From: Thermoproteota archaeon
GTDB lineage: Archaea; Thermoproteota; Nitrososphaeria; Nitrososphaerales; Nitrosopumilaceae
DNA: 64,000 nt
Direction of reading: 5' to 3'
Assembly (NCBI GenBank): GCA_003352285.1
Contig: QQVN01000003.1
Location: 310,001-374,000, forward strand
In this document: piece after piece, positions 18,804 through 33,540 of the stretch
Layout: each line of letters begins with the position of its first letter
Position numbering within the stretch: position 1 is the first letter of the stretch
The notes under the pieces: generated by a model
The model's database searches: none
What the model was told of the DNA's origin: nothing
What the model saw: only the letters and a program-made list of their open reading frames with translations
Translations under genes and position numbers: made by a program

Positions 18804-19136
18804 TCATCTAGGAAAGTAAAACATCACAGCTATACCAACTAAAACAACTATCGAGCCAATTATCTCAAACCTGTCTGGTTTCTTTTTGTCAACCCAGTAT
18901 CCCCAAATAATTGATGCAACAACAAAGATTCCTCCATAGGTAGCATAGACCTTGCCAAAATCTGCAGGCTGAAAAGTCATGCTAATTCCATAGGAAAACA
19001 AAACCAAACCACCAATCAAACCAAATATCTTTCCTTTATGATCTCGTAGCCATTTCCATACAAGATAACCTCCACCAATTTCTAACAAGGCTGCAAAAAA
19101 GAACAACCCAAGAGTTGATGCAACTACTTCGACCAA
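18804..19136 (-). CDS. YnfA-family (UPF0060) small membrane protein, copy 2
   Basis: A 110-residue protein with four membrane helices and the family hallmarks [36 protein letters not shown] and PDRFEIIGS. YnfA proteins are related in fold to small multidrug-resistance exporters. Its start lies 13 bp inside the end of its neighbour, which encodes a second YnfA, so the two are co-translated and probably form a heterodimer, as paired SMR proteins do; that is inference. Confidence 0.88.
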
Positions 19137-19489
19137 ACCTTCTCTCCTTTTCTTGGGTAGTAGAAAATAATCAAGACTCCAATAACTGCAATGACTGTAC
19201 CAATGATGTCATAGCTGTCAGGTTGTACACCATCTATCAACCAGCCCCAAAATACCGACATTACAATAAAGACTCCACCATAAGCTGCATAGACTCTGTG
19301 AAAGTGAGTCTTTTGAAACGTAGGAACTATCCCATAGAGAAACAACACAAAACCACCAACTGCACCAAGTACAAAGCTAAAATCCTCACGCAGCCAAAGC
19401 CAAACTAGGTAACCGCCACCAATCTCGCAAAGACCAGCTAGAAAGAACAACAGAACTGAAGTAAAAATATTCTTAGATTGTTTACCCAT
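19124..19489 (-). CDS. YnfA-family (UPF0060) small membrane protein, copy 1
   Basis: A 121-residue four-helix membrane protein with the same hallmarks ([45 protein letters not shown]). It is clearly paralogous to the following gene but diverged from it. The promoter has a TATA-like stretch overlapping an imperfect dyad GTAATTT/AAATTAC at 19490-19511 that straddles the expected start of transcription. The substrate is unknown; export of a toxic cation or amphiphile is the family-based guess. Confidence 0.88.
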
Positions 19490-19605: not shown

Positions 19606-20364
19606 ATGATAGACATACTTCTGAGTAGAAAAGAGGTAGACAAAACAGTAGATTCTAACACACTGATAAAAAATGTACAAAACAGAGTCAATGATTCCTT
19701 GGAGAAAGGATATCAGTACACAAGAGTAGTTGATTCTTCAGAAAAATTCCTACGGGAAAGAGTGTTTCAGCAAGTAAAAGCGGCTGTATTATACGTGGAT
19801 CTGGTGGGTTCTACAAAAATCAGTATGCAATTGCCCCCAAACAAACTTTCAACTCTGATAAGCTCATTTTCTCAGGAGATGGCTTATGTCATAAACGCTC
19901 ACAACGGATATGTTCTAAAATTTGTCGGCGATGCAGTGATAGGCTATTTTGTCGAAGATGAGACTAGCTCGTTTAAGACTGTAGATAATGCTGTAGGCTG
20001 TGCAGAATCCATGCTAAAGGTTGTAAGGCGTGGAATAAACCCAATATTGACTGAAAAGGCGGACCTTCAAGAAATTAGCGTAAAGATTGGAATTGATTTT
20101 GGGACAAATGTCGTGGTTAGATATGGTGCAGATGAACAAAGAGCATACGTTGATTTGTTGGGACCAACAATGAATGTTGCATCAAAGATTCAAAACTTGG
20201 CACAATCAAATCAAATTCTTGTAGGCCAAGACATACATGAGCTACTACATCCAAGTATACAGAAATTTTTTATCGATATCACCGATGAATCATCTGGGAA
20301 ATGGCAACATCGGGCAAAAAATTCAGATAACATTTATCGTGTATATCGATACAAATATGATTAG
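19606..20364 (+). CDS. Class III adenylate/guanylate cyclase catalytic-domain protein
   Basis: A soluble 252-residue protein with one cyclase domain from about residue 60. The two metal-binding Asp are present (LYVDLVGST and KFVGDAVIGYF). The Asp that favours ATP and the transition-state Asn are present in YVDLLGPTMNVASK. The usual Arg of the xNxxxR motif is replaced by Lys, so activity may be altered. There is no membrane segment, HAMP or other sensor domain; the N-terminal 55 residues could be a dimerisation helix. It is divergent from the YnfA pair. Its product, if any, would be cAMP. Confidence 0.82.
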   Translation: MIDILLSRKEVDKTVDSNTLIKNVQNRVNDSLEKGYQYTRVVDSSEKFLRERVFQQVKAAVLYVDLVGSTKISMQLPPNKLSTLISSFSQEMAYVINAHNGYVLKFVGDAVIGYFVEDETSSFKTVDNAVGCAESMLKVVRRGINPILTEKADLQEISVKIGIDFGTNVVVRYGADEQRAYVDLLGPTMNVASKIQNLAQSNQILVGQDIHELLHPSIQKFFIDITDESSGKWQHRAKNSDNIYRVYRYKYD

Positions 20365-20406: not shown

Positions 20407-20829
20407 TTAATGAAGAACTTTTGGCAGTTTTCTAATCTTTGAGACAACAGAGAGTTTGCCTGAGCCAGTAACTATCACAAAAAGAACCATTGCTAAAAGA
20501 GCAAGATCATAATCCCATCCTCCTTGTGCAATGAAGAATCCATTATTCCATCTAATGTGAAAGATTGCATCTAGAAGTATTACACTAAATATTGCTCCAG
20601 TAATTCTGGTCATGAAACCTGCAATTAGGAATATTCCTCCAATGGTTTCAGCCAAGGCTATTGGTATCTGTAATTCTGGCGGCAATCCGAATCCGATTAG
20701 ATGTTCTCTCCATATTGGATCAAATTTCTGAAGCCCATAAACTACAAAGATTACTCCTACTGAAGATCTGATCCCCCAATAGGTTATCTCGTGAAGTTTG
20801 TTTGTTTTTGAAGTTTGTATAACTTGCAT
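20407..20829 (-). CDS. DoxX-family membrane protein
   Basis: A 140-residue protein with four membrane helices. It has the DoxX hallmarks LGLQKFDPIWREHLIGFGLP-like spacing (YGLQKFDP, then GLPPELQIPIALAETIGG) and the closing RWNNGFF...GGWDYDLALLAM. DoxX proteins include the small subunit of thiosulfate:quinone oxidoreductase and partners in membrane redox stress responses. An exact copy of the palindrome TTTACAATTGTAAA is 46 bp upstream of its ATG, which places it in the putative TRASH regulon. It follows the Kelch gene on the same strand. Confidence 0.85.
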   Translation of the reverse strand: MQVIQTSKTNKLHEITYWGIRSSVGVIFVVYGLQKFDPIWREHLIGFGLPPELQIPIALAETIGGIFLIAGFMTRITGAIFSVILLDAIFHIRWNNGFFIAQGGWDYDLALLAMVLFVIVTGSGKLSVVSKIRKLPKVLH

Positions 20830-20874: not shown

Positions 20875-20888
20875 TTTACAATTGTAAA
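20875..20888. promoter_or_regulatory. Palindromic operator B, copy 1 (exact)
   Basis: TTTACAATTGTAAA, a perfect 14-bp palindrome, 46 bp upstream of the DoxX gene (minus strand, start 20829). Six related copies follow at 22876, 23173, 25052, 25900, 28350 and 30961, all in promoter regions. Confidence 0.75.
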
Positions 20889-20927
20889 ATCACTAGGAAT
20901 CAAAACTGAAACTTTACACTACACACT

Positions 20928-21950
20928 TTATTGTGGAATTCTTGCAATCTTGGTTTTTGAAATCATAATGACAGATACCATGCCAATTACAAGTATCACT
21001 GATACCAAAAGGCCAAACTCGGGAACTACAGTATTGTGATATTTTTCAACAATCGTACTAGAGCTAAAACCAGGAATTACTCCTCCACCAAAAAGATAGA
21101 TGTTTTGTCCAACGGTAGTAGTTGTTAACCCATGACGAGCAATAGGCATTGCCTGTTGAACAAACCATCCTTCATCAGGAATGTATGCCTCATTTTCTTC
21201 AAATGTGTATAGAGGTCCTTCACCTCCAACAACAAAGATTGCACCACTAAGAACCGATGCAGACAGACCGCTCCTTGCAGTTGGTAACGGCGGCAAGACA
21301 CTCCAAGAATCCGTTTTGTAATCATATACTTCATTTGAATCACTGTTTGACTGCAATGCTCTTCCTCCAACTGCGTATAGTTTACCATCAAGAACCGCTG
21401 TCGCAAGATGTTCTCTTGCAGTTGGCATTGATGATTTCGTTTCCCATGAGTTGGTCAATGGATCATACATCTCGTTTTCTGCACGGGTAAACTTGTTGAA
21501 TCCTCCAACTGCAAAGAGTTTTCCATCAACAAATTTAGCACTCAATGCACCCCTTGCAGTAGGCATCTCAGCACCAAAACTCCAAGAATCTTTCTTTGAA
21601 TCATAAATTAACAGGGAAACATTTGGAATCCATCCCTCAAGATATCCTCCTACAACATACACTTTATCCTCATGAGAAGCAACTCCTGCATGATGTAGCT
21701 CCAACGGCATAGGTTTTGCGGAACCCCATGATTCCTTTGTCGTATCAAACACAAACGCTGTCCTTGTTGGATTGTCAGCATTATCGAGTCCTCCGATTAC
21801 AAAAATTTTATCACCTATTGCGGCAGAGCCCGCCTCGGATCTTCTCTCAGGCAATTCTGGAAGAGTATTCCACCCCTGAGAATCCTGCTCAGCAAAAACT
21901 GATGGAAAAGCAAAAATCAGAAGAATTGAAAAAATAAAAATCTCTTTCAT
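20928..21950 (-). CDS. Secreted Kelch-repeat beta-propeller with PEFG-type anchor
   Basis: A 340-residue exported protein: a signal peptide (residues 1-20, ending SVFAEQ), then six or so Kelch repeats. These have the alternating motifs DKIFVIGGLDN, DKVYVVGGY, GKLFAVGGF, GKLYAVGGR and GAIFVVGGE. The C-terminus VVPEFGLLVSVI followed by a hydrophobic helix and KTK is a PEFG-type sorting signal, so it is probably anchored on the cell surface. Kelch propellers bind partners; no catalytic function can be stated. It precedes the DoxX gene on the same strand, separated by the operator B copy. Confidence 0.83.
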   Translation of the reverse strand: MKEIFIFSILLIFAFPSVFAEQDSQGWNTLPELPERRSEAGSAAIGDKIFVIGGLDNADNPTRTAFVFDTTKESWGSAKPMPLELHHAGVASHEDKVYVVGGYLEGWIPNVSLLIYDSKKDSWSFGAEMPTARGALSAKFVDGKLFAVGGFNKFTRAENEMYDPLTNSWETKSSMPTAREHLATAVLDGKLYAVGGRALQSNSDSNEVYDYKTDSWSVLPPLPTARSGLSASVLSGAIFVVGGEGPLYTFEENEAYIPDEGWFVQQAMPIARHGLTTTTVGQNIYLFGGGVIPGFSSSTIVEKYHNTVVPEFGLLVSVILVIGMVSVIMISKTKIARIPQ

Positions 21951-21997
21951 GGTTTAACTAGCAGAAAGTAACTAAAAACATCTTTGTGAATGATTTA

Positions 21998-22555
21998 CTA
22001 TTTCATCATGTGATTCTCGTGATTCATGGGCATCATATCCTGCATCTGCTCCATGTGTCTTTGCATCATTTGAACCATTTGTGAGTTAAATTCTTCATCT
22101 GAAATTTCTGATGAGAGAAGAGACTGCATCTCATTTACGTGCTCATTCATGTACTGGATCATCTTCTGTCGTGTTTCTGGATTCTCCATTATCTGCATCA
22201 TCATTTCCTGACCTTTCATGCTAGAACCCATGGCTTTTGACATGTCCTTCATTGCTTCTGGATTCTCAGCCATATGAGCCACCATCTGCAATCTGATCTT
22301 TGGATCATTTAACATAACTCCCATCATCTCCATCATGAAATCATGATCGTCACTCATTACCTCAGACATCATCTGTGCATGCTGGGCATCTGCCATCCAT
22401 CCCTTCATGGCTTCGGTATTCATCATGTTTCCATGTTGGGGATTATCCATCATGATATTTCCCTGATTAGAGCCTTGTAAGGCAGTAAAACCAACTCCTA
22501 TTCCTACAAAGAAAACAGCAGCTGTAATTATTATCCAAACGTTTTGTTTTGGCAT
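21998..22555 (-). CDS. Met/His-rich membrane-anchored protein, copy 2
   Basis: A 185-residue protein with an N-terminal anchor (WIIITAAVFFVGIGVGFTAL) and a helical outer part rich in Met, Gln, Asp and His (for example NPQHGNMM and HMEQMQDMM). The N-terminal third resembles the Met-rich protein at 8282 (VFFxGxGxGxxALQ followed by a Met-rich PQ segment), but this copy is less repetitive. Methionine and histidine clusters suggest binding of Cu(I) or another soft metal outside the cell. No operator B copy lies directly upstream (none in the 78 bp to the next gene). Confidence 0.7.
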   Translation of the reverse strand: MPKQNVWIIITAAVFFVGIGVGFTALQGSNQGNIMMDNPQHGNMMNTEAMKGWMADAQHAQMMSEVMSDDHDFMMEMMGVMLNDPKIRLQMVAHMAENPEAMKDMSKAMGSSMKGQEMMMQIMENPETRQKMIQYMNEHVNEMQSLLSSEISDEEFNSQMVQMMQRHMEQMQDMMPMNHENHMMK

Positions 22556-22633
22556 ATTTGCAGATAATTTGAGTTGCTCTATTTAGAGATATCTTGAAAT
22601 GTAATCTACAAAATATTTTTCTGAATTTTTTCT

Positions 22634-22837
22634 TTACGTTGTTAATTCAGGCTTTATCGTCCATGCAATACCAAGTACAACAAAAGGAATAGACATGAGA
22701 CCAACAATTCCCAAAATTGTGTAAAACGATGATTCAGAAACGGAAGAATTGTTTATCAGCCAAGGTAGTGGCAACGATATTACAAACCAGATGACTGCAA
22801 GTAATATGTACAGTTTAATCTTTTTAGATTTGTACAA
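22634..22837 (-). CDS. Two-helix small membrane protein
   Basis: A 67-residue protein with two membrane helices (about 8-28 and 40-60) joined by a short polar loop. No family recognised. It is divergent from the small zinc-ribbon gene at 22934, and the shared promoter region holds an operator B copy at 22876-22889, which suggests co-regulation. Confidence 0.55.
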   Translation of the reverse strand: MYKSKKIKLYILLAVIWFVISLPLPWLINNSSVSESSFYTILGIVGLMSIPFVVLGIAWTIKPELTT

Positions 22838-22875
22838 TGAAAAATTTTCTTTGATGTTGTATTAATTCTGATACC

Positions 22876-22889
22876 TTTCCAATTGTAAA
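22876..22889. promoter_or_regulatory. Palindromic operator B, copy 2
   Basis: TTTCCAATTGTAAA (13 of 14 positions) between the divergent genes starting at 22837 (minus) and 22934 (plus). The plus-strand TATA-like GTTAAGTAT follows at about 22898-22906 and the start codon lies about 28 bp further, a leaderless layout. Confidence 0.65.
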
Positions 22890-22933
22890 GTTCTATTGTT
22901 AAGTATCTGTAAGCAACGCATTAACCCAGAATC

Positions 22934-23152
22934 ATGAATTCATGCAAAGGCATTTGTCAGAAATTCAAAGCAAAGACGTATCGAGGAAAAAGCAGATATG
23001 AAGACGGACAAAGGCGTTGCCAGACATGCACAATCTTTTTGAAATGGAGTAAGAACAGATGTCCTTGCTGTAACAGTCTATTGCGGATTACTCCTAGGGC
23101 AAACAACTCACGAAAAACTCTCCGTAAAAAAAGAAACTTTGTTTGGATTTGA
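22934..23152 (+). CDS. Small Cys-rich protein, CKGIC/CPCC family, copy 2 (72 aa)
   Basis: A 72-residue protein with the family pattern: SCKGICQKF, a basic RGKSRYEDGQRRC segment, CQTC, then RCPCCNSLLR and a basic tail with TPRANNSRKTLRKKR. The same order occurs in the proteins at 6154 and 26380. The Cys are expected to bind zinc or another metal. The basic character suggests nucleic-acid contact. It is controlled by operator B copy 2 and followed by the CcdA operon with its own operator copy. Confidence 0.72.
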   Translation: MNSCKGICQKFKAKTYRGKSRYEDGQRRCQTCTIFLKWSKNRCPCCNSLLRITPRANNSRKTLRKKRNFVWI

Positions 23153-23172
23153 GCATAAAGACAACCGTGCAT

Positions 23173-23186
23173 TTTACATTTGTAAA
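23173..23186. promoter_or_regulatory. Palindromic operator B, copy 3
   Basis: TTTACATTTGTAAA (13 of 14) upstream of the CcdA-like gene (start 23224). The TATA-like GTTAAGTAT at about 23195-23203 follows at the same distance as in copy 2, so the two promoters look duplicated. Confidence 0.68.
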
Positions 23187-23223
23187 GTTTATTCGTTAAG
23201 TATCCCTGCATGTATTCTAAATC

Positions 23224-24213
23224 ATGTCAGAATATCAGACCATTACAAAAAAGTCTATGGTAATTGTAATGTTTGCATTATTTTCACTCATCTTTGTTGG
23301 TGCAATATTTTCTGCCACAAGTAACATAGCAGTTGAAGGTGGAGAACATGTATCATATCTGTCATGGATTGTTATTGCATATGCTGCTGGGCTTTCTATG
23401 ATTATACTACCGTGCACTTTGCCTCTTGTATTCATAATAGTACCAATGAGCATGGGACAGGGATACAGAAAAGGACTGTCAATGGCATTACTATTTGGAG
23501 CAGGCCTTACGATAACCATTACTGCTTATGGGATAGGAGTGGCATACTTTGGTCAGACAGCCTCCTTGGATCAGATCTCAACAATTATGTTCTTAATTGC
23601 TGGTGTGGCGGCGTTCGTATTTGGACTCTCACAGCTAAAACTTGTCTCAATTCGGCTTCCCTCGTACTCAGGAACCCCCAAATTCATTCAAAAAAGAGGC
23701 GATTTTTCAAAATCATTCTTCATGGGTATACTGTTAGGAAATGCAGGAGTTGGTTGCCCCAATCCATTATTCTATTGGCTTTTGATATACATTGCAGGAA
23801 CTGGGAGCTTGGAAATTGGAGCTTCACTAGGAGTAGTGCACGGAGTCGGCAGGGCAATTCCATTAATACTAATGTCCGTTCTTGCTGTGCTGGGAATTAA
23901 CGCAACAAAGAGTCTTACTGTTAAGAGAGCTTCAATTGAGAAAGCAACTGGATGGATGCTATTAGTTATTGGTTCTTTTTTGATAATCAATGGACTTCCA
24001 GAAGGTCATGAATGGTATGAAGAAACATTTGTTCATCAAGGGTGGAACAAATTAATTGACATGACGCCAGTATCATCAGAGTACATGATGGATGAACATG
24101 AACATGGTCATGAGGAATCACTTAATCTAAACTTCGAATTAATTCTGTTATTGTTACTAGGTTCACCAATTGTAGCATACTTTATTTCTAAGAAAAGGAA
24201 GGTTACAACATGA
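23224..24213 (+). CDS. CcdA/DsbD-like thiol-redox membrane protein
   Basis: A 329-residue membrane protein with eight or so helices. One Cys lies in each half of the core (ILPCTLPLVF and GVGCPNPLFYW), as in the CcdA/DsbD transmembrane domain that carries electrons from cytoplasmic thioredoxin to the outside. A His/Glu-rich outer loop (DEHEHGHEES, about residues 288-297) precedes the last helix and may bind metal. The stop TGA overlaps the ATG of the YHS gene (ATGA), and a thioredoxin-like gene follows, so this is a coherent redox operon under operator B copy 3. Confidence 0.85.
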   Translation: MSEYQTITKKSMVIVMFALFSLIFVGAIFSATSNIAVEGGEHVSYLSWIVIAYAAGLSMIILPCTLPLVFIIVPMSMGQGYRKGLSMALLFGAGLTITITAYGIGVAYFGQTASLDQISTIMFLIAGVAAFVFGLSQLKLVSIRLPSYSGTPKFIQKRGDFSKSFFMGILLGNAGVGCPNPLFYWLLIYIAGTGSLEIGASLGVVHGVGRAIPLILMSVLAVLGINATKSLTVKRASIEKATGWMLLVIGSFLIINGLPEGHEWYEETFVHQGWNKLIDMTPVSSEYMMDEHEHGHEESLNLNFELILLLLLGSPIVAYFISKKRKVTT

Positions 24214-24353
24214 AAGATCCTGTTTGTGGAATGGACGTCAATGATAAAGGTGAGACAATAACACATGGAGGAAAAGAATTCAGGTTCTGCTGTGCTAGCT
24301 GTAGGTGGGCATTTGAGAAAAATCCTGAACAATTTCTGAATAATGACTCTTAA
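24210..24353 (+). CDS. YHS-domain mini-protein (47 aa)
   Basis: A 47-residue protein that is essentially one YHS domain: KDPVCGMDV at the start, then GKEFRFCCASCRWAFEKNP. Cys6 plus the CCxxC cluster (27, 28, 31) form the presumed metal site; YHS domains are common in copper and heavy-metal handling proteins. It overlaps the CcdA-like gene by 4 bp and the thioredoxin-like gene by 11 bp, so all three are translationally coupled. Confidence 0.82.
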   Translation: MKDPVCGMDVNDKGETITHGGKEFRFCCASCRWAFEKNPEQFLNNDS

Positions 24354-24573
24354 GATTGAAGTTTTAACCACGCCTGATTGTTCAAGCTGTTCAAGGCTTG
24401 AAGAGATGTTAGACAAGATGGGAGTAAGCTACGACATAATTGATGTAACTCAGAAGCCAGAATATCTTGAGAAATATCCTATCTATACAGCACCTGGCTT
24501 GGTGGTAAATGATAAGCTAGTATATACAGGAATACCAAAAAAAGAAGAGTTAGAATCATTAATTAAAAAATAA
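24343..24573 (+). CDS. Thioredoxin/glutaredoxin-like small protein
   Basis: A 76-residue thioredoxin-fold protein with the redox pair CSSC (residues 13-16) in TTPDCSSCSRL and the cis-proline region YTAPGLVVND. This is the short form used as a cytoplasmic electron donor or as a metal-carrying disulfide reductase. With the CcdA-like and YHS genes upstream it forms a complete path from cytosolic reductant to the outside. It is convergent with the regulator gene, 8 bp away. Confidence 0.85.
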   Translation: MTLKIEVLTTPDCSSCSRLEEMLDKMGVSYDIIDVTQKPEYLEKYPIYTAPGLVVNDKLVYTGIPKKEELESLIKK

Positions 24574-24581
24574 TTTCTGAC

Positions 24582-25019
24582 TTAGGGTGATTTTTTTATG
24601 AGTGCTTCTATTCTTCCACGATATTTTTCTTTGTAGAGTGATTTACAGGAACTACAACAAAAGAATCTCTCAATGTTTGCAAATTTTAAAACAGTTGGTT
24701 TTTTTCCAACTGGTCCCTCACATAAATCACAAACCATCTTTACTGACATCTTTTTTGAGAAATCAACATTAGGAACATCTGTTTCTGTGTGAACTCGCTC
24801 AAGTTTTGTTAGCTGTTTTTTCTGAAGTTTACTTGCATCAATTAGAGGTACAACGGATTTTATCAGGCCGACATTTACCAATCTCTGATATCGAAACTTT
24901 ACGGTGGGAGTGCTAATTTTTAACTCTCTTGAGATCTGTCTAAATGACTTTCTACCATCTTCCATTAGGGACTTGATTATTGCAACGTCTGTCTCATCTA
25001 GTTCGTGAGTCATATTCAT
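24582..25019 (-). CDS. Lrp/AsnC-type regulator with C-terminal TRASH metal-sensing domain
   Basis: A DNA-binding protein of about 145 residues. The N-terminal helix-turn-helix is Lrp-like (DETDVAIIKSLMEDGR, then RQISRELKISTPTVKFRYQRL). The C-terminus is a TRASH domain (VCDLCEGP and later FFCCSSCKSLY), the Cys-rich metal-binding module found in archaeal copper regulators. The open frame begins at a GTG (25046), but the TATA-like AATAAATATC overlaps those first codons. The ATG at 25019, or the one at 25013, is thus the likely leaderless start. Operator B copy 4 lies 33 bp upstream, which suggests autoregulation. The metal (copper or another soft metal) is inferred from family. Confidence 0.85.
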   Translation of the reverse strand: MNMTHELDETDVAIIKSLMEDGRKSFRQISRELKISTPTVKFRYQRLVNVGLIKSVVPLIDASKLQKKQLTKLERVHTETDVPNVDFSKKMSVKMVCDLCEGPVGKKPTVLKFANIERFFCCSSCKSLYKEKYRGRIEALIKKSP

Positions 25020-25051
25020 GATTAGCTTGCCTAGATATTTATTCACTAAAC

Positions 25052-25065
25052 TTTACATTTGTAAA
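25052..25065. promoter_or_regulatory. Palindromic operator B, copy 4 (regulator's own promoter)
   Basis: TTTACATTTGTAAA (13 of 14) directly upstream of the TATA-like element of the TRASH regulator (minus strand). DsbA ends at 25088 on the same strand, so this site serves the regulator alone. Confidence 0.72.
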
Positions 25066-25087
25066 GTTAGGCTCTTCTAGCCTTGGC

Positions 25088-25861
25088 CTAGTTTGAAAGC
25101 TTTTCATTTAAAATCTCTTGGAATACAGAATATGGCTGGGCACCAATAATCCTTGTAAATCCCGTTTTTTCATTTCCCACAAAGAATCCAGGGGTACCTG
25201 TGACTCCGTATTGTCTTCCATCCTCAAGATCTGCGTTAATCTCTGCAAGATATTTCCCACTCTCAAAACAGTCGTTAAACTCTTGCATATCTAGATCAAG
25301 ACTCGAGGCATATTGCTTGAATGTGTTGACTGCCACAGGGATCTCAAGATCTTGCCAATTCTTCTGATTCACAAACAGCAGATCATGATATTCCCAGAAT
25401 TTTCCTTGATCATCTGCACATTCAGAGGCCAATGCTGCAGGAACTGCATTGGGATGAATTCCCTGAATTGGAAAATCCCTGTACACAAAATTCACCTTTC
25501 CTGTTGACAAATAGTTTTGTTCAAGCAATGGTAATGTCGTTCTATGAAACCTTTCACAGAAAGGACATTGAAAGTCTGAGAACTCCACGATTGTAATTTC
25601 AGCATCTGGATTTCCCTTGATGGGATCATCATCTAGTGAAATAAACAGAGTGGTAGAACCTGTCTGGGGTTGTGTTGGCTGAGTACGGGTTGGACCTATA
25701 ACATCCTCTGCATTTTGAATTATTATCGGCTGTGGTGGATTGAATTCAGAAGCAAAAACATATCCTCCTAGGAATGCGGCAATTACAGCAGCTGATACTA
25801 ACGAAATTAGCAGTTTGTTGTTGGAACTCTTTGCAACTTTACCTTGTTCTGACTCACTCAT
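25088..25861 (-). CDS. Membrane-anchored DsbA-like thiol oxidoreductase
   Basis: A 257-residue protein. A membrane anchor (about residues 15-38) is followed by a Pro/Gln/Thr-rich linker and a DsbA-type thioredoxin fold from about 80. It has the active site EFSDFQCPFCERFH and the later cis-Pro segment VTGTPGFFVG. It is expected to form or reshuffle disulfides outside the cell, and the CcdA-like protein encoded nearby could keep it reduced. Its promoter is shared with the divergent gene at 25954 and carries operator B copy 5. Confidence 0.9.
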   Translation of the reverse strand: MSESEQGKVAKSSNNKLLISLVSAAVIAAFLGGYVFASEFNPPQPIIIQNAEDVIGPTRTQPTQPQTGSTTLFISLDDDPIKGNPDAEITIVEFSDFQCPFCERFHRTTLPLLEQNYLSTGKVNFVYRDFPIQGIHPNAVPAALASECADDQGKFWEYHDLLFVNQKNWQDLEIPVAVNTFKQYASSLDLDMQEFNDCFESGKYLAEINADLEDGRQYGVTGTPGFFVGNEKTGFTRIIGAQPYSVFQEILNEKLSN

Positions 25862-25899
25862 TGCAACTAATTAAAACCGATTGTATATAACAACAGAAC

Positions 25900-25913
25900 C
25901 TTACAATTGTAAA
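25900..25913. promoter_or_regulatory. Palindromic operator B, copy 5
   Basis: CTTACAATTGTAAA (13 of 14) between the divergent DsbA-like gene (start 25861) and the gene at 25954. TATA-like tracts flank it on both sides (TGTATATAAC at 25882-25891 for the minus direction and TGTTATTTAT at 25921-25930 for the plus). Confidence 0.7.
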
Positions 25914-25953
25914 ATGGTATTGTTATTTATCTCAAAATCACACGTATCATATC

Positions 25954-26376
25954 TTGGTATTAAAAAACAAGATAGGGATTTTTACTGGAATAGCACTTAT
26001 TGGAATCCTTGTCGCCTTGTCTATGTCATCTAATGAATTGGTAGACCTTGAAGCTCTTTCAACACCAGTGGGATTTGATAATATTCGAGTTACAAGTATT
26101 ACTGAAAACAGTGTAGAAGTTGTAGGTACAACCAAAGTCAAGGTAAACTGCGAGGTGGAATATGGAATAAACGAGACATATTCCAGCACAGCTACTGATA
26201 GTGGCATGATGGATATGGGACACACTGAGCATAAGGTAACTCTACTTGGTCTAGAACCAAGTACAAAATACGACTATAGATTCAAAGCATCATTCCAAGG
26301 TGATGACTATTATTCCAAGAAAAAGTCATTTTTGACATCACCATTGCCTGCAGCACAAAGTTCTATGGATAGATAG
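25954..26376 (+). CDS. Membrane-anchored protein with fibronectin-III-like domain
   Basis: A 140-residue protein with an N-terminal anchor (GIFTGIALIGILVALSM). One beta-sandwich domain follows with the fibronectin-III or phosphatase-N-domain pattern (IRVTSITENSVEVVG, then HKVTLLGLEPSTKYDYRF). A short DSGMMDMGHTEH segment could bind metal. The start is a TTG with no ATG nearby; it lies about 28 bp after the TATA-like element, so a leaderless TTG start is likely. The next gene begins 3 bp after its stop. Confidence 0.62.
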   Translation: MVLKNKIGIFTGIALIGILVALSMSSNELVDLEALSTPVGFDNIRVTSITENSVEVVGTTKVKVNCEVEYGINETYSSTATDSGMMDMGHTEHKVTLLGLEPSTKYDYRFKASFQGDDYYSKKKSFLTSPLPAAQSSMDR

Positions 26377-26379
26377 CCC

Positions 26380-26637
26380 ATGTTTCATTGCAAGGATATA
26401 TGTAAAAAATTTAGAGTTAGGAAACCCATTGGAGGGGAAGGACGCTACGGCTCAGGCCAAAAGTGGTGTAGTATATGCCATCGATTCATGTATCATGATA
26501 AGATACGTTGTCCCTGTTGTAGCTGCAAGTTACGAAATAGCCCACGTTCTACAAAACTAAGAGAGTCATTAAGAATTACCAAAAAAAGAACCAAGGTAAA
26601 AGACCTTCCAGAAATAAAAAACTGGAAAATAGTATAA
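26380..26637 (+). CDS. Small Cys-rich protein, CKGIC/CPCC family, copy 3 (85 aa)
   Basis: An 85-residue protein with the pattern HCKDICKKF, GRYGSGQKWC, CSIC, then RCPCCSCKLRNSPR and a basic tail. It matches the proteins at 6154 and 22934 in the order and spacing of most Cys, and has extra Cys in the last cluster. The gene begins 3 bp after the previous stop, so it belongs to the operator B copy 5 transcript. Zinc or soft-metal binding is expected; function unknown. Confidence 0.72.
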   Translation: MFHCKDICKKFRVRKPIGGEGRYGSGQKWCSICHRFMYHDKIRCPCCSCKLRNSPRSTKLRESLRITKKRTKVKDLPEIKNWKIV

Positions 26638-26651
26638 TTATTACTGAGAGG

Positions 26652-27617
26652 ATGCATAACATGAAAAAGAAATCACTAAACAAAAAAAATAACACCAAGA
26701 CATTTTTGCTTAGTGTGATTTTTGTCGTACTTGTAGTTGCTTCTATAACCGCAGTTTTAGGGCTTGTTATTGTTGAACAATCAAAATCTACTGATTCCAG
26801 TACCGTTAATGATGAAAAGACCGTCAACTGGCGTCATGTGCACGGTATAGGATTGGATCCTGTTGATCCTGATATCTTGTACATTGCAGCTCATGGGGAT
26901 TTCTACCAAAGCCTGAATGGTAATCTTCCCGTAAAAGTAGATGAGAAAAGATCTGACTACATGGCATTTAATGCTCCACCTTCTCCAGGCATTCCGCTTT
27001 ATGCAAGTGGACATCCTTCAACTGGTGGGAATACTGGATTGATCAAAAGCAACAACGGAGGAAAGACTTGGGAATTTGTATCAAACGTAATTGAACCTCC
27101 TGCAGATTTTCATGCAATGGCAATTAGTAAACAAGATCCTAATGTCCTGATTGGCTTTGACAGTGGTGCACGAGGTTTGTTTAAGACAACTGATGCAGGT
27201 ATCACTTGGAACAGCTTAGAGTATCCAGAATACATCTCAGCACTTGCAATCTCGCCTAATGATTCTGATTCGATATTTGCTGGAACAGGAAATGGAATCT
27301 ACAAATCTTCTGATGGCGGATCGACATGGAAGCATCTGAACTATAAAGGAATCACAGTTTATGCCATTGTTTTTGATGATGAAGGACATCTCTTTGCTTC
27401 AGTAGATATGTACGGTTTGGTGCATTCTGATGATCAGGGAGAAGTTTGGAATGACATGCAAGATATCAATCTCACAGTCACAAGCATGGCTGCAGACTCG
27501 CAAAAGAAGATGCTCTATGTTGGTGGCTATTCGCCTGAAGGATTCCAGGAGGTTTTCAAGATTCCTTACGATGTTAGCTTTTATGAGATAATCGGGACAA
27601 ACAAAGGACTAAAATAA
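26652..27617 (+). CDS. Membrane-anchored BNR/Asp-box beta-propeller protein
   Basis: A 321-residue protein with an N-terminal anchor (about residues 18-42) and an outer propeller with Asp-box repeats (SNNGGKTWEF, TTDAGITWNS, SSDGGSTWKH and SDDQGEVWND). It resembles the sialidase-like or sortilin-like 'glycosylhydrolase' proteins found beside metal-resistance genes. No catalytic acids can be assigned, so a binding role is as likely. The ATG at 26661 is an alternative start; both follow a TATA-like TATAATTATT. It starts 14 bp after the small Cys-rich gene. Confidence 0.72.
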   Translation: MHNMKKKSLNKKNNTKTFLLSVIFVVLVVASITAVLGLVIVEQSKSTDSSTVNDEKTVNWRHVHGIGLDPVDPDILYIAAHGDFYQSLNGNLPVKVDEKRSDYMAFNAPPSPGIPLYASGHPSTGGNTGLIKSNNGGKTWEFVSNVIEPPADFHAMAISKQDPNVLIGFDSGARGLFKTTDAGITWNSLEYPEYISALAISPNDSDSIFAGTGNGIYKSSDGGSTWKHLNYKGITVYAIVFDDEGHLFASVDMYGLVHSDDQGEVWNDMQDINLTVTSMAADSQKKMLYVGGYSPEGFQEVFKIPYDVSFYEIIGTNKGLK

Positions 27618-27672
27618 TAACCATAAAATGAACGGAACTATTTTTCACATTCTGTAATGATGGGCCGATGCA

Positions 27673-28311
27673 TCATGATTCTAGAATGCATACAGTATTA
27701 TCATTTCCAGTAATCCTGAATGTCTCTAATTCTGCTTGCTTTCCTTCACCCGTGTATACATCAATATGCTCTCCTATGATTGACGGTCCTTCATCTTCAG
27801 CATTAAAGACCTGTTTGTTCCATGGATGAGGTAGGCTTGGAATTGTTACCTTGTTACCATATTGAATCAGAGATTTGTCAACAGCAATGGTGCTGATCTT
27901 TAATTCATGCCCGTTTCCATCTAGTGGTATATCACTAAGATGATATGACTCATCATACCATCCTAGATATTCTCCTGATTGAGTTCTTCCCCAACCCTCT
28001 ATTCTTACTGCATCAACAAAATCTTTCTTGAAAGTATGTTCTTTGTCATCGATGATCACCTTTAGAATATCTCCAGAATGATCATCTTCTACTGGAGTAA
28101 AATATCCAGTAATGTACCATTCATCACTGCATTTAGAATAATCCACTGATTCATCATTTAGCTTAATTAGCTGTTCTTCAGAGTCTATCACTTTTGGAAT
28201 CTCTCTTGTTGATATATCGTTACTAGTTGAAGACAATTCAAAATAATATACTGCTGTAGCTATTAACAAAACAGAACCAATAATCAGACTTGTCCTTACT
28301 TTTGAAATCAA
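27673..28311 (-). CDS. Membrane-anchored protein with 3D (Asp-Asp-Asp) domain
   Basis: A 212-residue protein with an N-terminal anchor (about 7-25). The C-terminal domain has the order of motifs of the 3D domain of lytic transglycosylase-like proteins: WYITGYFTP, STIAVDKSLIQYGNKVTIP, NAEDEGPSIIGEHIDVY. The three Asp in AVD, AED and HID are in the expected places. Archaea lack murein, so the substrate must be something else or the domain is non-catalytic. It is divergent from the ferric-reductase-like gene, with an exact operator B between them. Confidence 0.6.
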   Translation of the reverse strand: MISKVRTSLIIGSVLLIATAVYYFELSSTSNDISTREIPKVIDSEEQLIKLNDESVDYSKCSDEWYITGYFTPVEDDHSGDILKVIIDDKEHTFKKDFVDAVRIEGWGRTQSGEYLGWYDESYHLSDIPLDGNGHELKISTIAVDKSLIQYGNKVTIPSLPHPWNKQVFNAEDEGPSIIGEHIDVYTGEGKQAELETFRITGNDNTVCILES

Positions 28312-28349
28312 TAGTATCTCTGATTTTTTGACGTTAATAACAACAGTAT

Positions 28350-28363
28350 TTTACAATTGTAAA
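28350..28363. promoter_or_regulatory. Palindromic operator B, copy 6 (exact)
   Basis: TTTACAATTGTAAA, identical to copy 1, between the divergent genes starting at 28311 (minus) and 28438 (plus). An AT-rich TATA-like stretch (TAATTATTAATTAT) follows on the plus side. Confidence 0.75.
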
Positions 28364-28437
28364 CTGTAATTATTAATTATGATGTGTGTCAACCATGATT
28401 AAACTTAAAAAATTTAGAAAATTTGAGAGACTGAAAA

Positions 28438-29136
28438 ATGAAGAAAATCCGTATTAAAAATAATTCACTCACAAGGCATTTGCTTGTTGGCTCTATTGCA
28501 TTTGCTTTGGCATTTGTTTTCTGGTTGGCACACTATGAGTGGGATGATGAGATGAGATTATGGAGGGCATTTGGAGATTCAGGATACACTATGCTCTTTA
28601 TGACACTAATCATTGGACCTGCAACCAAATTATGGCCACGTTTTTCCTCCTTGCTTACTTTTCGAAGAGAAGTTGCAATTTGGTTTGCAGTAATGGCAGT
28701 AACTCACGGAATCTTGATTGCACATGGGTGGGCAAACTGGAACGTGGAAAGGTTCTTTGGCTATGAATTCATTCCGCAGTTGGATAGAATTGTCAGAATG
28801 GAACCAGGATTTGGTCTGGCAAATACGATTGGGTTTGTTGCGTTCTTGTGGATTGCAATTCTTGCACTTACCTCCTCAGACAGAGCAATGAGATGGCTTG
28901 GAGCATCCTCTTGGAAATGGGTACATACTGGCTCTAACATTGTTTTTTATTTAGTTGCCATACACACGTCATACTTTCTTTTCATACACTATACAGAATC
29001 ATTTCACAAAACGGTCCCTCCTCAAAGCATCTTTGTAATCCCATTTGTAGTGATGAGCATCACAGTTCTTGTTTTACAAATATCGTCATACATTAAGGTG
29101 GTCAGATCAAACAATAGACGACTATTGCAAAAATAG
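28438..29136 (+). CDS. Ferric-reductase-like (MsrQ/YedZ-type) haem membrane protein
   Basis: A 232-residue protein with six membrane helices matching the ferric reductase-like transmembrane domain. Paired helix His are visible in VTHGILIAHGW and in KWVHTGSNIVF with AIHTSYFLFIHY, the expected b-haem ligands. MsrQ-type members pass electrons to a periplasmic methionine sulfoxide reductase, and other members reduce iron or copper. No MsrP gene is in the window, so the partner is open. Operator B copy 6 lies 75 bp upstream of the ATG. Confidence 0.82.
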   Translation: MKKIRIKNNSLTRHLLVGSIAFALAFVFWLAHYEWDDEMRLWRAFGDSGYTMLFMTLIIGPATKLWPRFSSLLTFRREVAIWFAVMAVTHGILIAHGWANWNVERFFGYEFIPQLDRIVRMEPGFGLANTIGFVAFLWIAILALTSSDRAMRWLGASSWKWVHTGSNIVFYLVAIHTSYFLFIHYTESFHKTVPPQSIFVIPFVVMSITVLVLQISSYIKVVRSNNRRLLQK

Positions 29137-29201
29137 CGTGAGATTTCCATTAAAATCCTCTAGAGACTCAAATTTACTTTGAGCTGGCTGTGGGAAAAGA
29201 A

Positions 29202-30887
29202 TTATGTGGATAACGTTGCCTCTTCTTTCTTTTTCCAAAGAACTACCATGTACAATGCCCATAGAATCCATATGATGGCCATCAGAGAGTGAAGTATTGC
29301 TTCATTAGATTCTACAGGTTTCTGATTTTCCTGAAATGTCAGATCTTCCACCTGATACGGTTGATGTGTTAAAGGATCTAACAAATTTTCAACTGATGAG
29401 AACTTGTCTGTTAAGAAAAGTGCATTTGAGGTTTCAATTTTTGAACTGATAAAACGATTTTCTTTTTCCAGATCATCAACAAGATAAGTTATGGAGTTTT
29501 GTCTGGCAGTCTGCAATAATGATTCTCGGTCTAACCTTACATCTGTTTTTATTGCAACAAGAACTATGTTTTGCACATTATTCTGACCGTCCTCAGTTAA
29601 GAAAACATACTGTGAGGGAAAGCTTTCCCCCATAGTCTTGTAGATGCTTTTGAATAATTTAGAATGATCCCCGTGTAAAGATCCTATTACGTTGGAGATG
29701 ACTATGCCATCTGGATTAAGCTTGGAATCTAAAACTTGGAAGAATTCGTCAGTAATCAGATGATATGGAATATGGCTTGGAGCATATGCATCTAAAATTA
29801 TCAAATCATACGAATTATTTGTTGAAGTCAGAAATGATCTTGCATCTTCATTGAATATTCGTAGCCTTGGATTGTCTGTTAATTCAAAGTATTTGTAAGC
29901 AACATCAATCACCTCAGGATCAATCTCAACAACATCCACCCTAACCTCTGGATACACCAAAAGGAAGTTCTTTGGACCTGAGAATCCACCACCGCCTACA
30001 AACAGGACATTCTGAATGTTAGGATTTACCAAGCTCCCAACATGAAAGAAATCAGTATAATCTATGACTAGAGCAAGTGGATCATTTTCATTCATTGCAC
30101 TATGTTCAACACCATCCAAGAACAAAGAACGAATGGTACCATAGTCTATTACATCCAGATGGCTGTACGGAGTTTCTGTTTCATAGATGGGCTGTTTCTT
30201 GTGGAGAACCACACTGGTGCTAAATGAGGACCACGGCAAAAGCAAAATGATGATTATTCCAATCGTAATCATCTTTGGAATCTTCTTTAATCCAATCAAG
30301 GAAAGAATGATCAAAGCGACTCCTAATGCAAAAATTATCTGTGACACTTCAAAACTTGGCAAAATGAAAAACACTGTGGAAAATGTTCCGACTATGCTTC
30401 CAAGAGTCGCCATGGCGTAAAGGCTTCCTGAAATATTTCCTAAATTGTGTAATGCTTTGGCTCCAAGCTTGATCATATACGGAGATACAAAACCTAACAA
30501 TGAAGATGGAAAAATCAGGAGAAGAAACGTGGCTACAAATGCAGTGTACTGTGTTCCTGGCAGTACAGTAATGGCAAACTCAACTATGGATGGACTCAGA
30601 AATGGAATTATCGTGATGAATAATCCACTTGCAAATACTATGGAGCATATTTTTTCTAATGTTGGATTCCTGTCTGCAATTTTTCCTCCAATAAAATAGC
30701 CAAGACTTAGGCCTGTTAATATGACGCCAATCAAGCTTCCCCATGTGTATGTCGAACTTCCAAAAACGGGAGTAAGAATTCTGCTTGAAACTATTTCTAG
30801 TGCCATAACGATTGCACCAGAACCAAATGATAGTATTCCAAGTTTCCAAGCATTATTCTTCAACGATGACGCTTTCAAAGATGACAT
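29202..30887 (-). CDS. Multi-pass membrane protein with spermidine-synthase-like domain
   Basis: A 561-residue protein. The N-terminal half (about residues 15-230) has seven or eight membrane helices. The second half is an aminopropyltransferase-like Rossmann domain with the nucleotide motif VLFVGGGGFSGPKN, the acidic VDVVEIDPEVIDVA, EDARSFL and DLIILDAYAPSHIP. A last helix follows at about 530-550. The family is known as membrane-bound spermidine-synthase-like proteins, whose substrates are mostly unknown. It is divergent from the secreted-protein gene at 31076, with operator B copy 7 between. Confidence 0.83.
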   Translation of the reverse strand: MSSLKASSLKNNAWKLGILSFGSGAIVMALEIVSSRILTPVFGSSTYTWGSLIGVILTGLSLGYFIGGKIADRNPTLEKICSIVFASGLFITIIPFLSPSIVEFAITVLPGTQYTAFVATFLLLIFPSSLLGFVSPYMIKLGAKALHNLGNISGSLYAMATLGSIVGTFSTVFFILPSFEVSQIIFALGVALIILSLIGLKKIPKMITIGIIIILLLPWSSFSTSVVLHKKQPIYETETPYSHLDVIDYGTIRSLFLDGVEHSAMNENDPLALVIDYTDFFHVGSLVNPNIQNVLFVGGGGFSGPKNFLLVYPEVRVDVVEIDPEVIDVAYKYFELTDNPRLRIFNEDARSFLTSTNNSYDLIILDAYAPSHIPYHLITDEFFQVLDSKLNPDGIVISNVIGSLHGDHSKLFKSIYKTMGESFPSQYVFLTEDGQNNVQNIVLVAIKTDVRLDRESLLQTARQNSITYLVDDLEKENRFISSKIETSNALFLTDKFSSVENLLDPLTHQPYQVEDLTFQENQKPVESNEAILHSLMAIIWILWALYMVVLWKKKEEATLST

Positions 30888-30960
30888 TAAACTAGGAAAA
30901 ACAAATGCATATTAAAAATGACTTGTGAGTTGTTCTAAATTTTATGAAACAACAAAGAAC

Positions 30961-30974
30961 TTTACAATTGTAAT
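30961..30974. promoter_or_regulatory. Palindromic operator B, copy 7
   Basis: TTTACAATTGTAAT (13 of 14) between the aminopropyltransferase-like gene (start 30887, minus) and the secreted-protein gene (start 31076, plus). It is 74 bp from the former start. Confidence 0.68.
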
Positions 30975-31032
30975 GTATTGTTCTTATCTATGTTAAGACT
31001 GAAAAAAAGATTTGATAGTTATAATTCACCTT

Positions 31033-31063
31033 GAAAGTGAACAATAAATGGGGTTTTCAAAAA
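31033..31063 (+). repeat. 31-bp direct repeat at a gene start, copy 1
   Basis: A 31-bp stretch starting GAAAGTGAACAATAAATG is identical to 32048-32078. The preceding 30 bp, with the A-rich and TATA-like parts, are also similar but diverged. In this copy the ATG at 31048 opens only a 12-codon frame that ends inside the start of the secreted-protein gene. Confidence 0.85.
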
Positions 31064-31075
31064 TTATTGCTTGTC

Positions 31076-31978
31076 ATGCAGATTAGGAAATACTTTGTAT
31101 TCTCGATATTGATTGCAATGGCTATATTCTTGAATAATCAGGTCTTCGCTGAGGAGTTATCTGTTATTGATGAATGCATAAACAACAAGCTAACTTTAAC
31201 AATACTTTCATCTGGAAATCCTGTTGAAAATGCCTCTGTCTACATCTATCAGGATTCCTCTATGAAAAAATTTCATGACAAGCTAATTACTAATGCTCAA
31301 GGCCAGATTGAATTCCAATTTTCTGAGAAGACTGTTTATGCCAAAATCACCAAGGACAAACATGATGACTTGATTCAATCCCTTTCTTGTATTGAATCGT
31401 TTAGACCTCAATCAGTCTCAATATTTGGCGTTGTAGACAGCTCAGTTGGAATAATAGATGATCCTGTTAAACAATTAACAATTGTTGATCTAGGAACATT
31501 TTATGGACTAGCTGGAAATGGAACAATTCCAGATACGGTAAAAATTCTTAGAGACAATCATGTATGGAAAACAATAACAAAAGGAACTGGAATATCTCCG
31601 TCTACATCTCATAGTGAGTGGCAAATCCCTCAAACTGTATTTTATAATGAGCTTCCAGGAAAATATAGGATAATTCTGATTACAAATGGTACAGAAACAC
31701 TAGTCTATGAATTTGAGGTACGACAGATTACTGAATACAACAAGAGCAATTTTGAAGGTAACACTACAAAAAATATTTCTGAAAATGCCTCCAAGGAATT
31801 ATCGAAATATAATGTCACTCCATTAAAACAAATGAAAAATGGCGTATCTCCTAATGATATAATATGTAACAGCAATCTGCAATTAATGTTTAAAATCACT
31901 AATGATTCTCCTGCATGCGTAAAGCCATCAACTGTTGAAAAATTAATCGAACGAGGCTGGTTCTTTCATGGTAATTAG
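31076..31978 (+). CDS. Secreted protein with thaumarchaeal C-terminal Cys domain
   Basis: From the ATG at 31076 this is a 300-residue exported protein with a signal peptide MQIRKYFVFSILIAMAIFLN and cleavage near VFAEE. An N-terminal beta domain resembles carboxypeptidase-regulatory folds. The C-terminus (GVSPNDIICNSNLQLM, then PACVKPSTVEKLIERGW) is a two-Cys domain seen on many secreted thaumarchaeal proteins. A TTG at 31031 opens the frame earlier, but it lies in the duplicated leader and would add residues before the signal peptide. Operator B copy 7 lies upstream. Confidence 0.72.
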   Translation: MQIRKYFVFSILIAMAIFLNNQVFAEELSVIDECINNKLTLTILSSGNPVENASVYIYQDSSMKKFHDKLITNAQGQIEFQFSEKTVYAKITKDKHDDLIQSLSCIESFRPQSVSIFGVVDSSVGIIDDPVKQLTIVDLGTFYGLAGNGTIPDTVKILRDNHVWKTITKGTGISPSTSHSEWQIPQTVFYNELPGKYRIILITNGTETLVYEFEVRQITEYNKSNFEGNTTKNISENASKELSKYNVTPLKQMKNGVSPNDIICNSNLQLMFKITNDSPACVKPSTVEKLIERGWFFHGN

Positions 31979-32078: not shown

Positions 32079-32173
32079 AACAATTTTGTGGTTTCTGTCC
32101 TGATGACCGATGTTTGCTTGACTGCAAAGTGTGTAACCCAAAATATGGAAAGGGATGTAGTTGTGAGTCTTAG
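32063..32173 (+). CDS. Cys-rich micro-protein, metallothionein-like (36 aa)
   Basis: A 36-residue protein with seven Cys (MGFSKKQFCGFC, then RCLLDCKVCNP and GCSCES). This Cys density and the absence of a hydrophobic core fit a metal-binding mini-protein of metallothionein type or a small zinc knuckle. No known family is claimed. The stop TAG overlaps the GTG start of the next membrane-protein gene by one base, which supports translation of both. It is short, but the coupling and the strong Cys pattern argue for a real gene. Confidence 0.65.
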   Translation: MGFSKKQFCGFCPDDRCLLDCKVCNPKYGKGCSCES

Positions 32174-32679
32174 TGGTGAAAGCTTTGCATAAGGAGGCAC
32201 TCAAATTAGTATACTCTGGAACTACCTATTGGATAATCTCTGGGATCATCTTTGTATGCCTCCTACTGTTTCTTTTATCTGCACGAGAATTTCTCTTCTT
32301 TGAACCATTTTGGGCATTCCATATTCCATCAGACTGGATTCCACAGTTTGTTTTAATTCTAGTTGTAGCTGGACTAATATCTCTAGTTTCGAGCTTGGCA
32401 GTATATCAAATTAGGATGCTAAAAGCAAATTCCAAAAAGACAGGTACTGGTGTTATTGGTTCTTTGATTGGTATAGGTGCAGGTGTTTGTACAAGTTGTG
32501 GGCCTATAGGGTTTTCAATAATTACAACATTTGGAGTGGCAGCAGCCTCAACCTTGTCTTTTCTTTATGAATATGAAATACCAATTAGATTGGTAGCTAT
32601 TGCTATCTTGATTGCAACTTATTTTATGATGATCAGAGGAATTTCTAAAGAATGTAAAGTTAGAATAGATGAAAAATAA
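32173..32679 (+). CDS. Membrane protein with CTSCGP motif
   Basis: A 168-residue protein with four or so membrane helices. A glycine-rich helix carries GVCTSCGPIGFS at about residues 98-109; a Cys pair inside a membrane helix suggests metal passage or redox function. No named family recognised. The GTG start overlaps the stop of the Cys-rich micro-protein, so the two are coupled and may work together, for example as a metal carrier and a membrane acceptor; this is inference. Confidence 0.6.
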   Translation: MVKALHKEALKLVYSGTTYWIISGIIFVCLLLFLLSAREFLFFEPFWAFHIPSDWIPQFVLILVVAGLISLVSSLAVYQIRMLKANSKKTGTGVIGSLIGIGAGVCTSCGPIGFSIITTFGVAAASTLSFLYEYEIPIRLVAIAILIATYFMMIRGISKECKVRIDEK

Positions 32680-32817
32680 AACCTGACACTTTTCACACCT
32701 GTTTAGTACCAAAATAATCACAATACATAGTCTTATCATCTTCTAATCTAAAATTTTTATAATTGCTCAGCAGATAATCACCGATACATCATAGAAGAAA
32801 TCATTGAACAGATTGGA

Positions 32818-33540
32818 ATGCTTACCCCTGCACTAGTTATGGGATTGGGTCTAGCAGTTGGGATTCAACATGCCTTTGAGCCTGATCATGTTGCTGCAGT
32901 AAGCACGCAGATTTCAAAATCAAAGTTTGCTAAAAAATCCACTAGACAGTTAATCAAGGAATCATTAACAAGATCATCACTACTTGGCATTTTGTGGGGC
33001 GCAGGGCATACAACCACACTGGTCCTGATTGGTTTCTTGGTTTATGCCCTTGCAGTAACAATTCAATCTCAGATTTTTTCTGGATTGGAATTTGTAGTGG
33101 GATTGATGCTTGTATTTTTGGGAGCCAATACAATTCTTAACAAAAAGATAAGATTCAGACACAAACATCCCCATCAACACAAAGACGGAACAATACACTT
33201 TGATGAGCACGAACATGACGATTCAAACCACAAACACAACCACAGATCATACCTGATTGGCTTGATTCACGGATTGGCAGGAAGCGGAAGCCTTGTAGTC
33301 TTGACTGCAAGCACTTTGGATAATGTTGGTATGGTCTTAGGATTTATTGTGATTTTTGGAATCGGTTCTATGGTAGGAATGGCATTGGTAGGAAGCCTAA
33401 TGGGTGTTCCATTGGCATTTGGAAACCGAATTGCACTAGTTCAAAAAATATTTCGTTATGTTGCAGGATCATTCAGTCTTGTATTGGGATTCCATATCAT
33501 GTATCAAATTGGCGTAGTCGAGCACCTGTTTGGAATCTAA
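32818..33540 (+). CDS. NicO/UreH-type nickel/cobalt transporter
   Basis: A 240-residue membrane protein with about six helices. The first helix has the nickel-permease hallmark HAFEPDHVAAV, and the third has GILWGAGHTTTL. A cytoplasmic or outer loop (about residues 117-143) is rich in His (HKHPHQHK and HEHDDSNHKHNH), the expected metal-collecting stretch. The last core helices contain GLIHGLAGSGSL. Relatives either import nickel for urease or hydrogenase or export excess Ni/Co, as RcnA does. It is the last gene before attR and has no operator B copy. Confidence 0.88.
   Translation: MLTPALVMGLGLAVGIQHAFEPDHVAAVSTQISKSKFAKKSTRQLIKESLTRSSLLGILWGAGHTTTLVLIGFLVYALAVTIQSQIFSGLEFVVGLMLVFLGANTILNKKIRFRHKHPHQHKDGTIHFDEHEHDDSNHKHNHRSYLIGLIHGLAGSGSLVVLTASTLDNVGMVLGFIVIFGIGSMVGMALVGSLMGVPLAFGNRIALVQKIFRYVAGSFSLVLGFHIMYQIGVVEHLFGI

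Follow-up and report, generated by a model that had tools for sequence, protein, structure and literature searches.

The closest known parallel to the system described here is CopR of Pyrococcus furiosus, an experimentally studied TRASH-Lrp copper regulator with the motif TTNNCAWWWTGNNAA. This protein is octameric, responds best to Cu and Ag, and in vitro activates copA but acts as a repressor of its own gene; its motif adjoins the TFB recognition element (BRE) at most regulated promoters (PMC7830388). In Nitrososphaera viennensis, the regulation of the cop genes has been called an open question (PMC7785015). In bacteria, the DsbD-like and DsbA-like proteins of the Scs system (ScsB-ScsC-ScsD) bind Cu(I) and confer tolerance (PMC8900818). 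Here, we analyze a 64-kb stretch of an archaeal genome (the window; G000:C3:310001-374000) from a family that includes the ammonia-oxidizing Nitrosarchaeum, Nitrosotenuis and Nitrosotalea. Seven copies of a 14-base palindrome, TTTACAATTGTAAA, within this window are very probably the operators of one regulon under a Cu(I)-responsive TRASH-Lrp regulator (24582-25046), a relative of CopR and CopT that lacks the RAM domain. Our literature search, of partial coverage, found no description of this operator or regulon, and nothing usable on TRASH regulators in ammonia-oxidizing archaea. These organisms rely heavily on copper enzymes and are the dominant nitrifiers in many places.

The seven copies, counted at no more than one mismatch, are clustered in 10 kb, and a frequent longer form of the palindrome is ACTTTACAWWTGTAAAGT. 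A preliminary description of this DNA had listed the seven positions and estimated that about 0.1 copies would be expected in 64 kb. Each copy was recovered with zero or one mismatch, and 100 dinucleotide-preserving shuffles of the window gave a mean of 0.03 and a maximum of one. Every copy falls in an intergenic region with a gene downstream of it on at least one side, and four (22876, 25900, 28350, 30961) lie between divergent genes, in agreement with the promoter placement proposed earlier. The copies are as follows.

20875..20888, TTTACAATTGTAAA, 45 nt before the DoxX gene (minus strand)
22876..22889, TTTCCAATTGTAAA, between a divergent 67-aa gene (minus) and a zinc-ribbon-like 72-aa gene (plus)
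23173..23186, TTTACATTTGTAAA, 37 nt before the CcdA-YHS-thioredoxin genes (plus)
25052..25065, TTTACATTTGTAAA, 38 nt before the regulator ATG at 25013 (minus), predicted to mediate autoregulation
25900..25913, CTTACAATTGTAAA, between divergent DsbA (minus) and 140-aa (plus) genes
28350..28363, TTTACAATTGTAAA, between divergent 3D-domain (minus) and ferric-reductase/MsrQ-like (plus) genes
30961..30974, TTTACAATTGTAAT, between a divergent MFS-spermidine-synthase-like gene (minus) and a 315-aa secreted-type gene (plus)

The genome as a whole (1.69 Mb, 99.6% complete) holds nine copies at the same tolerance. The two outside the cluster are both coding, one inside the eIF2-gamma gene (C5:598772) and the other inside a 370-aa open reading frame (C2:231778), and all intergenic copies of the genome therefore fall in the 10-kb cluster. 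A search over the rest of the genome thus gave zero further intergenic copies, which rejects dispersal over the backbone. The eIF2-gamma palindrome (G000:C5:598772; L009:1501) is identical to the operator, recurs there in many relatives and inflates genome-wide counts.

The regulator gene lies on the minus strand (24582..25046), and Pfam matches, alignment and a structure model indicate an AsnC-type helix-turn-helix (HTH), a flexible linker and a C-terminal TRASH domain (CxxC...CCxxC). The gene had previously been placed at 24582-25019; the gene itself stands, whereas the start moves to the ATG at 25013, which encodes Met12 of the longest reading frame, is invariant in the ortholog alignment and stands at a distance of 38 nt from the 25052 palindrome. 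The HTH scored 47.5 bits with PF13404 (cut-off 27), and the TRASH domain scored 25.3 and 23.2 bits with PF24273 and PF08394, just below a cut-off of 27 that some orthologs reach or exceed. Five cysteines are invariant among 15 regulator sequences, and the predicted C-terminal domain with its conserved cysteines resembles that of CopR/CopT-type proteins. The RAM domain (AsnC_trans_reg, PF01037), the ligand and oligomerization domain of canonical Lrp/AsnC (feast/famine) regulators, was found neither in the window regulator nor in the four orthologs scanned, and was found in three of three RAM-type relatives scanned; the protein thus appears to stand apart from the canonical group. The linker between HTH and TRASH was modeled with low confidence as disordered, and a Foldseek search with the model returned only Lrp-HTH matches, with low full-length TM-scores and none below an E-value of 0.001.

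In a phylogenetic tree built from few columns, a single branch with support 98 unites all RAM-less forms. In families of the order that are more distantly related, the regulators are longer and contain RAM, and several of their genes (L062, L067, L069, L061, L070) have the palindrome, or a variant close to it, immediately upstream. Taken together, these observations are consistent with RAM having been lost once and with an operator that predates this loss. The RAM-less form raises the question of how an Lrp-type regulator functions when the domain that normally serves oligomerization and ligand binding is missing. Genome G034 encodes three regulator paralogs; two of them (L080) are separated by about 6 kb and have an operator each, and the third lies elsewhere.

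A homology scan for the TRASH-Lrp regulator covered one genome per species. The 79 loci retrieved were nearly all labeled as ammonia-oxidizing archaea, with three in bins labeled as bacteria. Of 77 loci, 53 have the palindrome with no more than one mismatch in the 160 nt preceding the regulator gene (30 of them perfect), against 0.05 expected from shuffled upstream regions. The exact TTTACAWWTGTAAA pattern was then counted in 200 genomes of the family with the reversed pattern as a control, giving 3.63 sites per genome in those with the regulator (n = 70) and 0.78 in those without (n = 130; p = 1.5e-17); the reversed pattern gave 0.26 and 0.25, respectively. Where genomes were scored as regulator-less, roughly half of the sites sampled fall within the coding sequence of eIF2-gamma, and some of these genomes (G092, G205, G077, G201) hold pieces of the regulator, several at contig ends. 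The TRASH-Lrp protein had been named as the natural binder of the palindromes, and this proposal is supported by the upstream sites, by their roughly five-fold higher frequency in genomes with the regulator and by a half-site equal to that of CopR. On these grounds, we infer that the regulator binds the palindromes, an assignment that is strongly supported.

Two observations were made alongside this survey. In G201 (C5:177581-177690), a TRASH-domain remnant of about 26 residues, possibly a decayed regulator, adjoins an intact operator. The three loci in bins labeled Amylibacter, Phycisphaerae and Saprospiraceae (L098, L108, L133) carry an archaeal regulator whose sequences group with the Nitrosopumilus type, and are probably binning contamination.

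Promoter geometry was analyzed in 273 site-gene pairs from recurrent target families. After a 9-bp gap, conservation returns at positions 10-18 past the palindrome in a sequence resembling a TATA box (TTAAATAT) at +10 to +17, and the distance from palindrome to start codon peaks at 37-38 nt. An A/T octamer occupies the TATA place in 10 of 11 target promoters in the window. Judged from the spacing to the TATA box, the palindrome would therefore abut the BRE, a position that fits activation and is also compatible with blocking of transcription factor B (TFB).

The genes behind 301 sites were clustered into families. The operator is conserved before the same gene families in distant genera. It precedes the regulator gene itself at 67 loci, a P-type ATPase at 43, CcdA at 23 and DsbA at 15; further targets include a plastocyanin-like cupredoxin, multicopper oxidase, HtrA-like protease, YtkA-like, DoxX, MsrQ/ferric-reductase-like, spermidine-synthase-like, Met-rich and Cys-rich proteins. 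The ATPases score above the cut-off of the copper subfamily TIGR01511, and all 42 full-length operator-linked sequences contain the CPC motif. Because the targets in relatives include a copper ATPase, cupredoxins and multicopper oxidase, the metal is most likely copper, which is also the simplest common theme of the targets. Next to the regulator, CopA was found at 38 loci and CcdA at 21, with no locus holding both; a strict alternation of the two was nevertheless rejected in favor of a tendency, as G206 has both in one cluster. No P-type ATPase (PF00122) was detected in the whole window genome by a search that was positive in 14 of 14 control genomes, and the family was detected in 35 of 61 genomes searched. 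The predicted regulon of the window is a thiol-redox and metal-binding set comprising CcdA-YHS-thioredoxin, DsbA, DoxX, MsrQ-like, Met-rich and Cys-rich proteins. Genome G069 of a relative and the single-cell genome L094 carry about a dozen sites, which precede much the same genes as in the window. The genes of the window cluster other than the regulator are listed below.

20407..20829, minus, DoxX-family membrane protein (weak HvfX-family match)
20928..21950, minus, Kelch-repeat protein (profile match), judged by gene order probably in one operon with 22634-22837
21998..22555, minus, Met-rich 185-aa protein, with its own operator in relatives (8 loci)
22634..22837, minus, 67-aa membrane protein with the operator 38 nt upstream, as in 5 loci
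22934..23152, plus, Cys-rich (zinc-ribbon-like) 72-aa protein
23224..24213, plus, CcdA/DsbD-type membrane protein (PF02683)
24210..24353, plus, 47-aa YHS-domain protein (PF04945), overlapping the CcdA end
24343..24573, plus, 76-aa thioredoxin/glutaredoxin-like protein (PF13192)
25088..25861, minus, DsbA-like exported thiol oxidoreductase (PF13462, PF01323)
25954..26376, plus, 140-aa protein (weak match to a purple-acid-phosphatase N-terminal domain)
26380..26637, plus, second Cys-rich small protein
26652..27617, plus, BNR/sortilin-type propeller protein, with its own operator in 5 other loci
27673..28311, minus, 3D-domain exported protein (PF06725)
28438..29136, plus, ferric-reductase-like (MsrQ-like) membrane protein (PF01794, weak NF003831), operator conserved in 7 loci
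29202..30887, minus, fused major facilitator superfamily (MFS)/spermidine-synthase-like protein (NF037959), operator conserved in 6 loci
31031..31978, plus, 315-aa exported-type protein, operator conserved in 5 loci

The window also encodes two adjacent, overlapping YnfA/UPF0060-type small membrane proteins (18804-19489, minus; Pfam match for the first, the second alike by eye) and, next to the regulon, a protein with an adenylate/guanylate cyclase catalytic domain (19606-20364). Genes for a 168-aa membrane protein and a NicO-like protein (32173-33540) lie close to the regulon and have no consensus operator; NicO comes after the CcdA-thioredoxin genes in G032 and G015.

Several points weigh against a copper regulon under the TRASH-Lrp protein. 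The window carries no copper gene beyond the oxidoreductase set, and the TRASH domain of its regulator falls slightly under the Pfam cut-offs. The loci were retrieved via the regulator, hence the neighborhood evidence is anchored on it, and 21 of the 77 loci lack a site of at most two mismatches directly upstream of the regulator, although more than half of these 21 hold a site of at most one mismatch elsewhere in the locus. In four genomes (G003, G035 and G064, 95-99% complete in 80-120 contigs; G024, 88% complete) no TRASH regulator was detected, yet a site stands in front of, or close to, genes of the CcdA, DsbA, Met-rich or BNR type. Such genomes, few in number, would also be expected if the palindromes were the operators of another DNA-binding protein, for example a CopY/BlaI-type repressor, with the TRASH gene merely a target. 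Six of the seven window copies contain the core TACAnnTGTA, which we take to be the CopY/BlaI cop box, and the window genome has a marginal PF03965 match (E = 5.1e-5, 88-aa frame). The core sequence is thus shared, but the protein family is unrelated to TRASH-Lrp, and PF03965 does not accompany the sites: three genomes (G015, G018 and G022) combine sites and a TRASH regulator without a match, and two others (G005 and G011) have a match yet zero exact sites. Site number instead tracks the TRASH regulator across the 200 genomes, and the P. furiosus CopR motif has the same half-site. CopY/BlaI as the binder is therefore not supported, and we regard control by any such other protein as quite improbable.

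The regulon could also be correctly drawn and respond to another metal (Hg, Ag, Zn, Ni) or to envelope thiol or oxidative stress. Thiol-disulfide enzymes (CcdA, DsbA, thioredoxin) are frequent among the targets, TRASH domains serve several metals, and the NicO gene that accompanies CcdA in two relatives and lies near the window cluster is nickel-transporter-like. This alternative is unlikely in our view, given that relatives have this operator before genes for a copper-type ATPase, plastocyanin-like cupredoxins and a multicopper oxidase, and given the preference of P. furiosus CopR for Cu and Ag. That the copies are a functionless repeat family or an accident of base composition is scarcely credible. 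Chance copies do arise in coding sequence, as in eIF2-gamma, but the shuffles reject chance for the intergenic copies of the window, and the spacing to TATA box and start codon is fixed, with the same gene families behind the site in distant genera.

Under the favored copper regulon, the AsnC-type HTH of the regulator would bind TTTACAWWTGTAAA abutting the BRE/TATA box of each target promoter. The TRASH cysteines would act as the sensor for a soft metal, most probably Cu(I), and thereby alter promoter output. The regulator would in this way control its own gene and an envelope copper-stress program of CcdA-YHS-thioredoxin, DsbA, DoxX, MsrQ-like, Met-rich and Cys-rich proteins. Activation under copper stress appears the likelier direction, with derepression a serious contender. 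We further suggest, tentatively, that a CopR-type regulator may have lost RAM once in ammonia-oxidizing archaea, with metal sensing and any dimerization through HTH and TRASH alone, and may run an Scs-like program of thiol redox and metal sequestration as the main copper defense in lineages without a copper ATPase. The analysis provides a precise operator, a probable regulator and a target list conserved across many genera.

Compared with P. furiosus CopR, the window regulator has the same arrangement of AsnC-type HTH and C-terminal TRASH domain and several target promoters. Its predicted operator is a palindrome with identical TTnnCA half-sites directly upstream of the BRE/TATA, as in CopR/CopT-type systems, although the half-sites are separated by 2 bp here and by 3 bp in the CopR motif. 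In many relatives of the window archaeon, the regulator and a divergent copA share a site, as with CopR, and the 43 ATPase loci show the linkage to copA typical of CopR/CopT-type regulators, which are often divergent from it. In contrast to CopR, the window regulator lacks RAM, and its genome has no detectable P-type ATPase and a regulon composed of an envelope thiol-redox set. CopT (Sulfolobus solfataricus/N. viennensis) offers a second parallel, in that ammonia-oxidizing archaea have a gene for a TRASH regulator close to copA; the CopT study describes no operator (PMC7785015). The motifs reported for copper limitation in N. viennensis were considered as the same element and rejected, as the published sequences differ (PMC7785015). 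Finally, the window CcdA is much shorter than the three-domain ScsB of bacteria, with a single transmembrane domain, and belongs to an archaeal set of separate genes with an added YHS protein; the likeness to Scs is by function only, a DsbD-type membrane reductase and DsbA/thioredoxin-like proteins tied to copper tolerance.

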